This document shows positions 23,258 through 32,420 of a stretch of 64,000 nt of DNA, piece by piece. Where the stretch lies: positions 248,001-312,000 of the forward strand of contig JAGYJF010000003.1 of the NCBI GenBank assembly GCA_018402135.1, given 5' to 3'. Position 1 is the first letter of the stretch. Every line of letters begins with the position of its first letter. The stretch comes from Flavobacteriaceae bacterium (GTDB lineage Bacteria > Bacteroidota > Bacteroidia > Flavobacteriales > Flavobacteriaceae). Under the pieces are notes generated by a model. That model ran no database searches. It saw only the letters and a program-made list of their open reading frames with translations, and was not told the DNA's origin. The position numbers and the translations under genes are program-made.

Positions 23258-23692
23258 ATGAACATAAAACTCATCAATAAATCCAATCATCCCATCCCAA
23301 ATTACGAAACTGAGGCCTCAGCCGGTATGGATTTACGTGCTTTTATAGACGAATCAATCACCTTACAACCTTTAGAGCGAACGATTGTCAAAACAGGTTT
23401 GTTTATAGAATTACCAATTGGTTACGAAGCGCAAGTACGACCACGTAGCGGACTAGCCGCTAAAAAGGGCATCACAGTATTAAACGCACCTGGAACAATC
23501 GATGCCGACTATCGTGGCGAAGTTGGGGTAATTCTTGTAAATTTGTCCAACGAGTCTTTCACCATAGAAAATGGTGAACGTATTGCACAAATGGTTATCG
23601 CTAAACATGAGCGCGCCGAATGGATTGAAGTAGAAACGCTTTCAGAAACTTCTAGAGGTGAAGGAGGGTTTGGGAGTACTGGTTTACATTAA
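23258..23692 (+). CDS. dut: dUTP diphosphatase
   Basis: A 144-residue trimeric dUTPase that hydrolyses dUTP to dUMP, keeping uracil out of DNA and supplying dTMP synthesis. All five motifs are visible: [40 protein letters not shown] and the flexible C-terminal [10 protein letters not shown]. It lies 11 bp after the flippase gene. Its stop codon is directly abutted by a CCTGC-type hairpin. Confidence 0.97.
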
Positions 23693-23712
23693 ATTCCTGC
23701 GAAAGCAGGAAT
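23693..23712. repeat. Palindromic repeat abutting the dut stop
   Basis: A perfect 8-bp stem (ATTCCTGC / GCAGGAAT) with a GAAA loop, followed by CTCGT. The next base after the dut stop codon is the first base of the stem. The flank CTCGT and a later AAAATG match the copy at 24072. Confidence 0.85.
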
Positions 23713-23779
23713 CTCGTCAACAAAATGGATAGAATTACGGAATTGAAGATCCAACAAAATAACTCATTTCAAAGAACCA

Positions 23780-24136
23780 ATGAACCTCTGGTACGTTTAC
23801 ATCATGACAAACAAAACAAATGGCGTTTTATATATTGGCGTTACAGACAACATTGAAGAAAGAGTAAAAGAACATAAGTTAAAATTATATCCAAAGTCGT
23901 TTACGGCAAAATACAACTGTAATAAGCTTGTCTATTTCGAGGAGTTTAACAAGGGAGCAGAGGCAGCTTTAAGAGAAATACAGTTTAAAAAATGGAAGCG
24001 AAATTGGAAAATACAATTGATTGAAGAAATGAATGCGAGTTGGATGGATTTAAGCATGAACTGGAACCTAAATTCCTGTAAAAGCAGGAATCTCGTTCGC
24101 AAAAATGACATGTTTAATCAGCTAACGAGAAATTAA
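23780..24136 (+). CDS. GIY-YIG nuclease domain protein within a palindromic-repeat cluster
   Basis: A 118-residue single-domain GIY-YIG protein (UPF0213/UvrC-N-like). The signature is WYVYIMTNKTNGVLYIGVTDNI, followed by the conserved Arg/His helix (EERVKEHK) and the later catalytic Glu region with LVYFEEF and AALREIQFKKWKRNWKIQLIEEMN. It is expected to cut DNA. The last 20 or so codons run through a CCTGT-AAAA-GCAGG hairpin, so the native protein probably ended near MNASWMDLSMNWN and was extended by the repeat. Hairpins flank it on both sides, which suggests that this gene and the repeats belong to one small mobile or domesticated unit. Confidence 0.8.
   Translation: MNLWYVYIMTNKTNGVLYIGVTDNIEERVKEHKLKLYPKSFTAKYNCNKLVYFEEFNKGAEAALREIQFKKWKRNWKIQLIEEMNASWMDLSMNWNLNSCKSRNLVRKNDMFNQLTRN
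24072..24091. repeat. Palindromic repeat inside the end of the GIY-YIG gene
   Basis: ATTCCTGT-AAAA-GCAGGAAT followed by CTCGT and AAAAATGA, the same orientation and flank as the copy at 23693. The two make a direct repeat around the GIY-YIG gene. Confidence 0.8.
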
Positions 24137-24187
24137 AATAAGTTTGAGAAAGTTATATTTGAAAACTTAGAATAAATAGAGAAAGAG

Positions 24188-24207
24188 ATACCTGCTTTCG
24201 CAGGTAT
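24188..24207. repeat. Palindromic repeat, opposite orientation
   Basis: ATACCTGC-TTTC-GCAGGTAT, a perfect 8-bp stem, first of two copies 40 bp apart before the nucleotidyltransferase start. Confidence 0.85.
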
Positions 24208-24227
24208 GATGTATAACCTTTAAAAGG

Positions 24228-24245
24228 TACCTGCTTTCGCAGGCA
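24228..24245. repeat. Palindromic repeat next to the nucleotidyltransferase start
   Basis: TACCTGC-TTTC-GCAGGCA ends 5 bp before the ATG at 24251, where a ribosome would bind. It has the same orientation as the copy at 24188. Confidence 0.85.
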
Positions 24246-24250
24246 TTTGT

Positions 24251-25270
24251 ATGAAAATAATAGTACCCATGGCCGGACGCGGCTCCAGATTAAGACCGCA
24301 CACCTTAACCACTCCCAAACCGCTAATACCGGTAGCTGGGCAACCCATTGTGCACCGCTTGGTGAAGGACATTGCCAAAGTGCTCAATCAACCCATTGAA
24401 GAAATAGCCTTTGTTTTGGGCGATCCTGCATTTTTTGGAGATGATGTGGTAAATAGTTTAACCGAGCTAGCCCAATCGCTCGGTGCCAAAGCCAGTATTT
24501 ATCGCCAAGACCAACCTTTAGGCACTGGGCACGCTATTATGTGTGCCAAACCATCACTTTCAGGACCAGCGGTTATCGCCTATGCCGACACGTTAATTCG
24601 TGCTACCTTTAACCTTGATCCAGAAGCTGATGCGGTAATTTGGACTAAAGAAGTTGAAAATCCCGAGGCATTCGGTGTGGTGAAATTGAATGACCAACAA
24701 CACATTGTTGAATTAGTAGAAAAACCAAGCAGCTTTGTGTCTAACCAAGCGGTGATTGGCATCTATTACTTTAAAGATGTTGCTATTTTAAAAGAAAAAC
24801 TTCAAGAAGTTTTAGACGAAAACATCACCAATGGTGGCGAGTATCAAATTAACGATGGCATTAAACGCATGATGGCCGAAGGACGCATTTTTAAAACAGG
24901 AACTGTTGATGAATGGATGGATTGCGGTAACAAAGCCGTTACCATCGAAACCAATAGCAAAATGTTAGGCTTTCTAAAAGAAGACAACCAAGAGGTTTTA
25001 ATATCAAATTCTATAAATCAATTTAATACAACCATTCTGGAACCCTGCTTTATTGGTGAAAATGTAGTTTTAAAAGATTGTATTATTGGCCCTTACGTAT
25101 CTATTGGTAACAATTGTAATTTAGAAAACACCAGCGTTAAAAATAGCTTAATACAAAACAATACCAAGATTATAAACGCTAAATTAGACCAAGCAATGAT
25201 AGGTAATAACGTTCATTTTGATGGTGAGTTTAAAAGCATTAGTATCGGCGATTATTCAGTATTAGAGTAA
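24251..25270 (+). CDS. Sugar-phosphate nucleotidyltransferase
   Basis: A 339-residue enzyme that activates a sugar 1-phosphate with an NTP for glycan synthesis. The N-terminal Rossmann-like domain has the pyrophosphorylase loop MAGRGSRLRPHTLTTPKPLIPVAGQPI (residues 7-33) and the substrate motif WMDCGNKAVTIE around 217-230. The C-terminal third (about 255-339) has hexapeptide left-handed beta-helix rungs (I-L-E-P-C-F-I-G-E-N-V-V-L-K-D-C-I-I-G). This is the glucose-1-phosphate thymidylyl/uridylyl-transferase-like architecture; the exact sugar is not decidable. A palindromic hairpin fills its leader and may hinder ribosome binding. Confidence 0.85.
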   Translation: MKIIVPMAGRGSRLRPHTLTTPKPLIPVAGQPIVHRLVKDIAKVLNQPIEEIAFVLGDPAFFGDDVVNSLTELAQSLGAKASIYRQDQPLGTGHAIMCAKPSLSGPAVIAYADTLIRATFNLDPEADAVIWTKEVENPEAFGVVKLNDQQHIVELVEKPSSFVSNQAVIGIYYFKDVAILKEKLQEVLDENITNGGEYQINDGIKRMMAEGRIFKTGTVDEWMDCGNKAVTIETNSKMLGFLKEDNQEVLISNSINQFNTTILEPCFIGENVVLKDCIIGPYVSIGNNCNLENTSVKNSLIQNNTKIINAKLDQAMIGNNVHFDGEFKSISIGDYSVLE

Positions 25271-32402: not shown

Positions 32403-32420
32403 TTCCCGCGAAAGCGGGAA
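32403..32420. repeat. Palindromic repeat in the trpS leader
   Basis: TTCCCGC-GAAA-GCGGGAA on the plus strand; in the trpS message it reads with a TTTC loop. A G/C-swapped member of the CCTGC family. It sits directly before the trpS start codon. Confidence 0.8.

Follow-up and report, generated by a model that had tools for sequence, protein, structure and literature searches.

The locus described here raises the question of what a small nuclease gene has to do with the palindromic repeats that surround it. The window, by which we mean the whole stretch of DNA analysed (64,000 nucleotides, positions 248,001 to 312,000 of contig JAGYJF010000003.1, assembly GCA_018402135.1, Flavobacteriaceae bacterium), holds a gene for a single-domain GIY-YIG nuclease lying among hairpins of the repetitive extragenic palindrome (REP) kind, and the original prediction was that such a nuclease may spread or maintain these repeats, by analogy with RAYT transposases. 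The locus is probably a REPtron of a new enzyme type, in which a GIY-YIG nuclease acts on its own REPs; the cutting and the spreading are the parts that we infer.

Gene and hairpins in the window

The gene is an ORF of 118 aa at 23780–24136 on the forward strand, and its identification as GIY-YIG was borne out by the Pfam family PF01541 (E=6e-18; 65.3 bits against a gathering cut-off of 22.6). On its left lies a forward-strand ORF at 23258–23692, which from its sequence we take to be dut (dUTPase), and whose stop codon abuts a REP hairpin at 23693–23712 (forward strand), ATTCCTGC-GAAA-GCAGGAAT, with a tail CTC facing the nuclease gene. Two hairpins inverted with respect to this one follow the gene on the reverse strand, ATACCTGC-TTTC-GCAGGTAT at 24188–24207 and TACCTGC-TTTC-GCAGGCA at 24228–24245, the latter with one mismatch outside its core, and the next ORF (24251–25270, forward strand) is, judging from its sequence, presumably a nucleotidyltransferase-like gene. 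A downstream hairpin with ACCTGC...GCAGGCAT ends, as at 24228, is also found in three relatives (L099, L102, L106), which have a syntenic downstream gene in common.

The predicted CCTGC-GAAA/TTTC-GCAGG hairpins are thus present at 23693, 24188 and 24228, but the copy that had been placed at 24072 (24072–24091, forward strand, ATTCCTGT-AAAA-GCAGGAAT, i.e., CCTGT-AAAA-GCAGG) is imperfect and lies within the 3′ end of the ORF, the last ~20 codons of which run through it, so that this intragenic REP is read as part of the C-terminal tail of the protein (24072–24136). Because of this position, and because the alignments of the closest relatives to the protein end at about residue 103–109, the meaningful bracket is the inverted one, formed by 23693 (loop GAAA) against 24188/24228 (loop TTTC), and the direct pair 23693/24072, which had also been said to frame the gene, was rejected as a functional bracket. 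A more distant member that had been listed at 32403 proved to be a CCCGC variant of the same hairpin kind (TTCCCGC-GAAA-GCGGGAA, 32403–32420, no strand assigned); the one listed at 1199 (GCTGCGGAAGCAGG) is a poor match and was excluded from the family.

With up to one mismatch, CCTGCNNNNGCAGG matches the window five times against 0.54 expected, a number reached in none of 100 shuffles. The own genome contains 16 exact copies of TTCCTGCNNNNGCAGGAA and none of the reversed control, the counts being 184 and 46, respectively, when up to three mismatches are allowed.

The GIY-YIG protein

GIY-YIG enzymes hydrolyse DNA. In the Pfam scan of the 118 aa, PF10544 (T5orf172) matches over the same residues as PF01541 and there is no further domain, neither Y1_Tnp nor an extra DNA-binding domain such as NUMOD. 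Across 40 sequences eleven columns are invariant, including Y18, G20, R28 and E66, with Y7 and H32 present in at least 90%; the conserved Tyr, Gly, Arg and Glu are presumably the GIY-YIG catalytic positions, and the invariant residues are consistent with an active nuclease. By sequence, the solved structures closest to it are those of UPF0213 proteins (1zg2, E=3e-8; 1ywl) and UvrC. Fold matches of the AlphaFold2 model (pLDDT 88) to 1zg2 (Z 6.7, rmsd 5.6, 79 aligned residues) and to Slx1 (Z 6.4–6.5) have Z scores too low to weigh alone, and Foldseek returned nothing at E ≤0.001 (best E 1.7e-3). A single sub-threshold match was found in Rfam, and weak matches, mostly of GIY-YIG type, in PADLOC and PHROGs.

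Hairpins bracket one clade of GIY-YIG genes

Homologues were found at E 1e-5 in 93 of 149 genomes of the own family (148 genera). Two groups can be told apart among these genes, a clade with the motif KxWxRxWK, which includes the window gene and to which the term clade refers hereafter, and a sister clade with a KAGNRKRK-type motif; this split was noticed post hoc, after the first flanks had been inspected, and loci obtained later serve as its validation. The hairpins flanking the clade genes have 8-bp stems and loops of 4–5 nt, the downstream copy often being the inverted partner of the upstream one, and their stem type varies by gene (ATTCCTGC, ATTTCCGC, TTCCCAC, ATTCCGCA, TGCGCA and CTGAA types).

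When hairpins within 150 bp were counted in the first test, 130/134 clade genes had at least one (114 upstream, 107 downstream, 91 on both sides) and 79/134 had a matched inverted pair, against 1/19 and 0/19 sister genes; among control ORFs of the same loci, some hairpin was found at 175/861 (70 upstream, 119 downstream, 14 both) and a matched pair at a single one of the 861. All loci together comprise 302 distinct genes (229 clade, 61 sister and 12 fitting neither motif), and here a hairpin lies within 200 bp of 219/229 clade genes versus 11/61 sister genes, with matched inverted pairs at 143/229 and 2/61, which leaves 86/229 clade genes without a matched pair by the criterion used. The four sets collected after the split (the rest of the own family, the Algimonas class, the G150 class and the plasmid collection) give hairpins at 84/91 clade versus 5/34 sister genes and matched pairs at 57/91 versus 1/34. 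Outside this sum stand a genome-contig set, with hairpins at 76/77 clade genes and no sister genes, and a further locus set, with hairpins at 9/9 clade and 1/6 sister genes. The sample centred on a 'Nitrotoga' bin looks like Bacteroidia, since several of its places nearly coincide with those of the own family, and it served only as a class.

Some of the genes stand apart from REPs: both of the two G218 genes examined and one of two G281 genes have no REP flank, though both genomes have REPs. In G218 three inverted REP pairs (L384, L385, L386) have the same arms and a nearly constant spacing of 120–121 bp, the length being kept while the spacer sequences look unrelated. Elsewhere (L061, genome G087), a stretch of ~6 kb contains four GIY-YIG genes with hairpins of three types.

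Two further GIY-YIG genes were seen in the own genome. One (L024, C2:810162) is a second clade-type gene, broken by stops and flanked by inverted TGCGCA-5-TGCGCA hairpins, exact copies of which occur at its two flanks and nowhere else in the own-genome assembly. The other (L026, C2:334197–337421, at 1430–1870) encodes 93 aa, falls outside the clade and lies directly before a tRNA-Asn gene (1790–1864); by eye, ~18 bases through the tRNA start are repeated before it, beside a TCCCGATAGCTATCGGGA hairpin, a duplication that looks as if the gene had been inserted there.

The gene–REP bracket is present in several phyla. From the plasmid collection, in which 32 records have a match, 16 loci were retrieved, and by eye 12 of these are flanked upstream and downstream by hairpins of one type (Azospirillum lipoferum, Sinorhizobium meliloti, Sinorhizobium sp., Rhizobium sp. 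CIAT894, three Shinella, Neorhizobium, Novosphingobium aromaticivorans, Sphingobium, Aeromonas caviae and Neisseria gonorrhoeae, the last with the gene inside a cluster of dRS3-like hairpins). The Photobacterium and Rhizobium sp. K1/93 loci have a hairpin on one side, and those of Planktothrix and Spirosoma have, by eye, no hairpin of such kind on either; by the script's criterion, matched pairs occur at 11/14 clade and 0/2 sister genes of the collection. The REP-free relative on the Planktothrix agardhii plasmid (L319) has an MmeI-like restriction gene on one side and DISARM drmA on the other, that is, it is located in a defence region. In the Algimonas class (Alphaproteobacteria) the gene is matched at E 1e-12 in 70/240 genomes, and hairpins were found at 25/29 loci of best matches, matched pairs at 16/29. 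A relative is also present on eight IMG/VR contigs (L369–L376), all of which have at least one such hairpin, with a GTC tag in 7/8; these contigs may be bacterial fragments rather than phage, and a search of phage records gave no homologue at E 1e-6.

Resemblance to CGTC-REPs

A known class of repeats has the same build. Di Nocera (2013, PMC3733652) describes CGTC-REPs as dispersed elements with stems of 8–9 bp beginning with AT, loops of 4–5 nt, a CGTC tag that in many copies reads TGTC, CCA tails, and a predominance of dimers with the tags outside; the superfamily includes Neisseria dRS3 and Rickettsia RPE-4/6, and predominates in alphaproteobacteria, being found also in Neisseria, Bacteroidetes and other phyla. 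Among its named hosts are A. lipoferum, S. meliloti, N. aromaticivorans and Neisseria, which also appear in our plasmid set. For Caulobacter crescentus, both CGTC repeats (PMC3733652) and three COG2827 genes (PMC1839093) are reported. According to the 2013 paper, these repeats 'apparently lack a dedicated transposase', no transposase gene being flanked by CGTC units save for a few fortuitous associations, and their mobility was left open.

The innermost hairpins of the clade share this anatomy, namely an 8–9 bp stem, a 4–5 nt loop, a CGTC/TGTC tag outward and a CCA-like tail inward. A GTC tag points outward in 192 of them, inward in 33, is found on both sides in one and on neither in 154; of the 192 outward tags most read TGTC (101) or CGTC (58), and these hairpins have CCA as their inner tail in 70 cases and CTN in 60. 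The window copies have the stem (ATTCCTGC, 4-nt loop) and the dispersal (in the own genome, 16 exact copies against 0 of the control) of a CGTC-REP, but no clear CGTC, TGTC or CCTC tag at one end and no outward CGTC/TGTC tag of the kind seen in about half of the clade's innermost hairpins, so we call the window REPs CGTC-like only.

Hairpin type and protein

The two flanks of a gene resemble each other. The innermost flank stems, computed on unfiltered pairs, agree at 6.63 of 8 positions within a gene against 3.91 of 8 between genes, a value reached in 0 of 2000 permutations (161 genes). On a FastTree protein tree of 202 rows, changes were counted over the 143 rows whose flanks match: there are 13 for loop length, against 46.9 in 100 shuffles (lowest 41), and 43 for the inner stem, against 88.5 (lowest 83). 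Loop length and inner stem therefore follow the protein tree.

Ends of the unit, empty sites and inheritance

Where similarity between cassettes stops was determined on 2734 interdependent pairs without similar flanks (non-syntenic). In these non-independent pairs, 577 alignments reaching the upstream hairpin stop a median of 3 bp beyond it, and 499 reaching the downstream hairpin a median of 5 bp beyond, in both cases at the tag; between Shinella and S. meliloti, for example, 387 columns align, beginning with CGTC and ending with GACA. A direct repeat of at least 4 bases at the ends, as expected of a target duplication, was found in 0/79 cassettes having both tags.

Sites without the unit are seen in relatives. 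The suf operon of A. lipoferum is interrupted by the gene together with the REP pairs flanking it on either side, a block of 509 bp counted between tags, and the sufB–sufC gap holds no such hairpin in A. ramasamyi, A. oryzae and Azospirillum sp. B510 (95–97% identical) or in A. thermophilum (89%), that of B510 containing, by eye, a different, long-looped inverted repeat. For the window, the sole congener in the sample (G069) has a dut 87% identical and, directly downstream across a gap of ~140 bp, the nucleotidyltransferase gene; unlike in the window, where the GIY-YIG/REP block separates the two, this gap has no GIY-YIG gene and, by the criterion used, no REP-like hairpin.

At protein identities above 90%, 9/9 gene pairs are syntenic, which indicates that inheritance is mainly vertical; at 80–90% identity 41/86 are syntenic, 45/86 having no common same-side neighbour, and at 70–80% it is 95/348. 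As far as these loci tell, movement appears to be slow.

Dispersed REPs and presence of the gene

The census counts given here for the family genomes include the cassettes' own hairpins, and all of the census statistics ignore kinship among genomes. The TTCCTGC-4-GCAGGAA type occurs in 71/149 family genomes (reversed control 0/149) and the CTGAA-5-TTCAG type in 70/149 (control: one match). With kinship ignored, TTCCTGC REPs average 12.6 where a TTCCTGC-type gene is present (18 genomes) versus 2.3 in the 131 others (p 3e-9), and CTGAA REPs 8.5 in 29 genomes with a CTGAA-type gene versus 1.4 in 120 (p 4e-14). Cross-type associations are weaker yet positive (p 1.5e-3 between TTCCTGC REPs and CTGAA genes, p 7e-6 between CTGAA REPs and TTCCTGC genes). 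Joint regression, again ignoring kinship, gives t values of 6.4 for the own-type gene, 1.7 for the other type and 1.1 for the Y1 transposase in the case of TTCCTGC REPs, and of 9.3, 1.9 and 2.5 in the case of CTGAA REPs. REP abundance thus tracks the gene whose hairpins are of the same type more closely than HUH transposases, and the correlation across genomes on which the original prediction depended is strong and largely type-specific. Among alphaproteobacteria, at least five copies of the one tagged REP pattern searched occur in 20/70 gene-positive versus 3/170 gene-negative genomes, and at least ten in 14/70 versus 0/170 (kinship ignored); this one pattern is absent from 41/70 gene-positive genomes.

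REP populations also exist without the gene. Among 97 family genomes with no clade gene among the matches listed (weak matches left out), 16 have at least three TTCCTGC copies (e.g., G096 with 22 and G131 with 17) and 11 at least three CTGAA copies. The own genome with its 16 copies is equalled by the congener G069 with 15, although no gene retrieved from the latter has TTCCTGC flanks. REP copy number is therefore not simply set by the gene. Inverted gene-free REP pairs no more than 200 bp apart, among the matches listed, are oriented outward in 20 cases and inward in two, with one tandem.

A proposed route of spread and its alternatives

We take the unit to be a single-domain GIY-YIG gene between inverted CGTC-type REPs of its own type, with tags mostly outward and, in its simplest form, ~380 bp between tags. 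Comparison of loci and genomes shows this in several ways: the bracketing is specific to the clade, the types of the two flanks match, similarity ends at the tag with no target duplication seen, the unit is present at sites REP-free in relatives, and the abundance of same-type REPs tracks the gene.

In the mechanism that we propose, the nuclease would recognise its own REP, as a hairpin or cruciform together with its sequence, and would cut near the stem/tag junction, after which host repair would copy or rejoin the REP-bounded DNA. The outcome would be a slow spread of single REPs and gene-free inverted REP pairs, and sometimes of the whole unit. We know of no GIY-YIG enzyme that joins DNA ends, and joining is therefore assigned to host recombination. 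Of the RAYT-like role that had been predicted, the correlation and the bracket in several phyla have been found, and the spreading itself is inferred.

A less favoured reading, which we consider unlikely though worth keeping in mind, is that the protein is a domesticated structure-specific nuclease that trims or removes REP cruciforms in genome maintenance without spreading them, the REPs accumulating by other means. Mostly vertical inheritance at high identity would suit such a role, as would the fold matches, at low Z, that include the branched-DNA nuclease Slx1, and the SOS box reported at a C. crescentus COG2827 gene (PMC1839093). Housekeeping of this kind leaves unexplained, however, why the gene is itself enclosed by a matching pair, why the tag marks the limit of similarity and why whole cassettes occur at sites REP-free in relatives.

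The last of these observations bears also on a homing scenario, in which the gene would insert into existing REP pairs by cutting them, REPs being targets and not parts of the element. GIY-YIG homing nucleases are described as inserting at their own cut sites (PMC1564403), and the gene-free inverted pairs mostly have the orientation of the cassettes, but the empty sites of G069 and of four Azospirillum species have no such hairpin, so that homing into existing REPs alone is an insufficient explanation and we regard the scenario as improbable.

A role of the hairpins as terminators for the gene or as regulators of its translation, with no connection to mobility, is very improbable. The distance from the end of the upstream hairpin to the start codon is often ~16 bp in the window-type clade, and a hairpin on one side is no rarity at ordinary ORFs (175/861), but regulators would hardly be dispersed genome-wide, have, in many cassettes, a tag and a tail that are unpaired at both flanks, and form matched pairs so rarely at sister genes (2/61) and control ORFs (1/861). 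Finally, it is almost certainly not the case that HUH (RAYT-type) transposases spread the REPs, with the GIY-YIG link a side effect of REP-rich genomes: Y1_Tnp is matched in 50/149 genomes, the own one among them, and has a small effect on CTGAA REPs (t 2.5), but TTCCTGC REPs are unrelated to its presence (p 0.53), a matched pair, of unrelated sequence, was found at 1/24 sufficiently long Y1 loci (30 retrieved), and the 2013 paper reports no CGTC-flanked transposase gene save a few fortuitous associations (PMC3733652).

Returning to the nuclease as an agent acting on its own REPs, we regard the clade enzyme as a strong candidate for the activity, so far missing, behind the spread of a class of repeats that is widespread in bacteria. 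Whether the unit should moreover count as a class of autonomous mobile element not recognised before, ~380 bp long in its simplest form, with a single-domain GIY-YIG nuclease as its sole protein, CGTC-REPs as its ends, single REPs and gene-free inverted pairs across several phyla as its non-autonomous offspring, and a mode of movement by cutting and repair that differs from HUH and DDE transposition, is in our estimation evenly balanced.

The supposition that such a pair had gone undescribed agrees with the open-access literature, to which our search extended (preprints and most subscription papers lie outside its scope): among the papers listed there we found no earlier report linking GIY-YIG genes with REPs and no joint mention of GIY-YIG and dRS3, and, in the parts of the texts available, only an unrelated joint mention of GIY-YIG with 'repetitive extragenic palindrom'. 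The 2006 GIY-YIG survey (PMC1564403) does not contain the term 'palindrom', nor does the 2025 RepRanger paper contain 'GIY' or 'nuclease'.

Comparison with known systems

Single-domain GIY-YIG proteins of the COG2827/UPF0213 type share the domain with the window protein, as seen in the profile and fold match to 1zg2, and differ in that the sister clade with the KAGNRKRK-type motif is seldom bracketed by REPs (2/61 matched). GIY-YIG homing endonucleases likewise have the nuclease domain and are mobile, whereas here no DNA-binding domain beyond the nuclease core was found and the ends are REPs, not intron ends.

With the CGTC-REPs the clade's repeats have in common the stem, the loop, the tag, the CCA tail, the dispersal and the outward-tag pairs; the difference is that the clade has a dedicated gene bracketed by the repeats, where the 2013 paper reports no associated transposase gene (PMC3733652). 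This provides a specific candidate gene for the movement of CGTC-REPs that was left open in 2013.

A further parallel is offered by the REPtrons of GTAG-REPs and RAYT (TnpA-REP) transposases. In both systems the enzyme gene is flanked by its own REP type and REPs are type-specific, and a patchy distribution, with REPs in genomes without the gene, is common to both (PMC6006769). They differ in the tag of the REP and in the enzyme, which is a GIY-YIG nuclease here, with no HUH Y1 transposase domain, and an HUH Y1 transposase there; if our reading is true, two nuclease families with no relation to each other would have arrived independently at the propagation of REPs.
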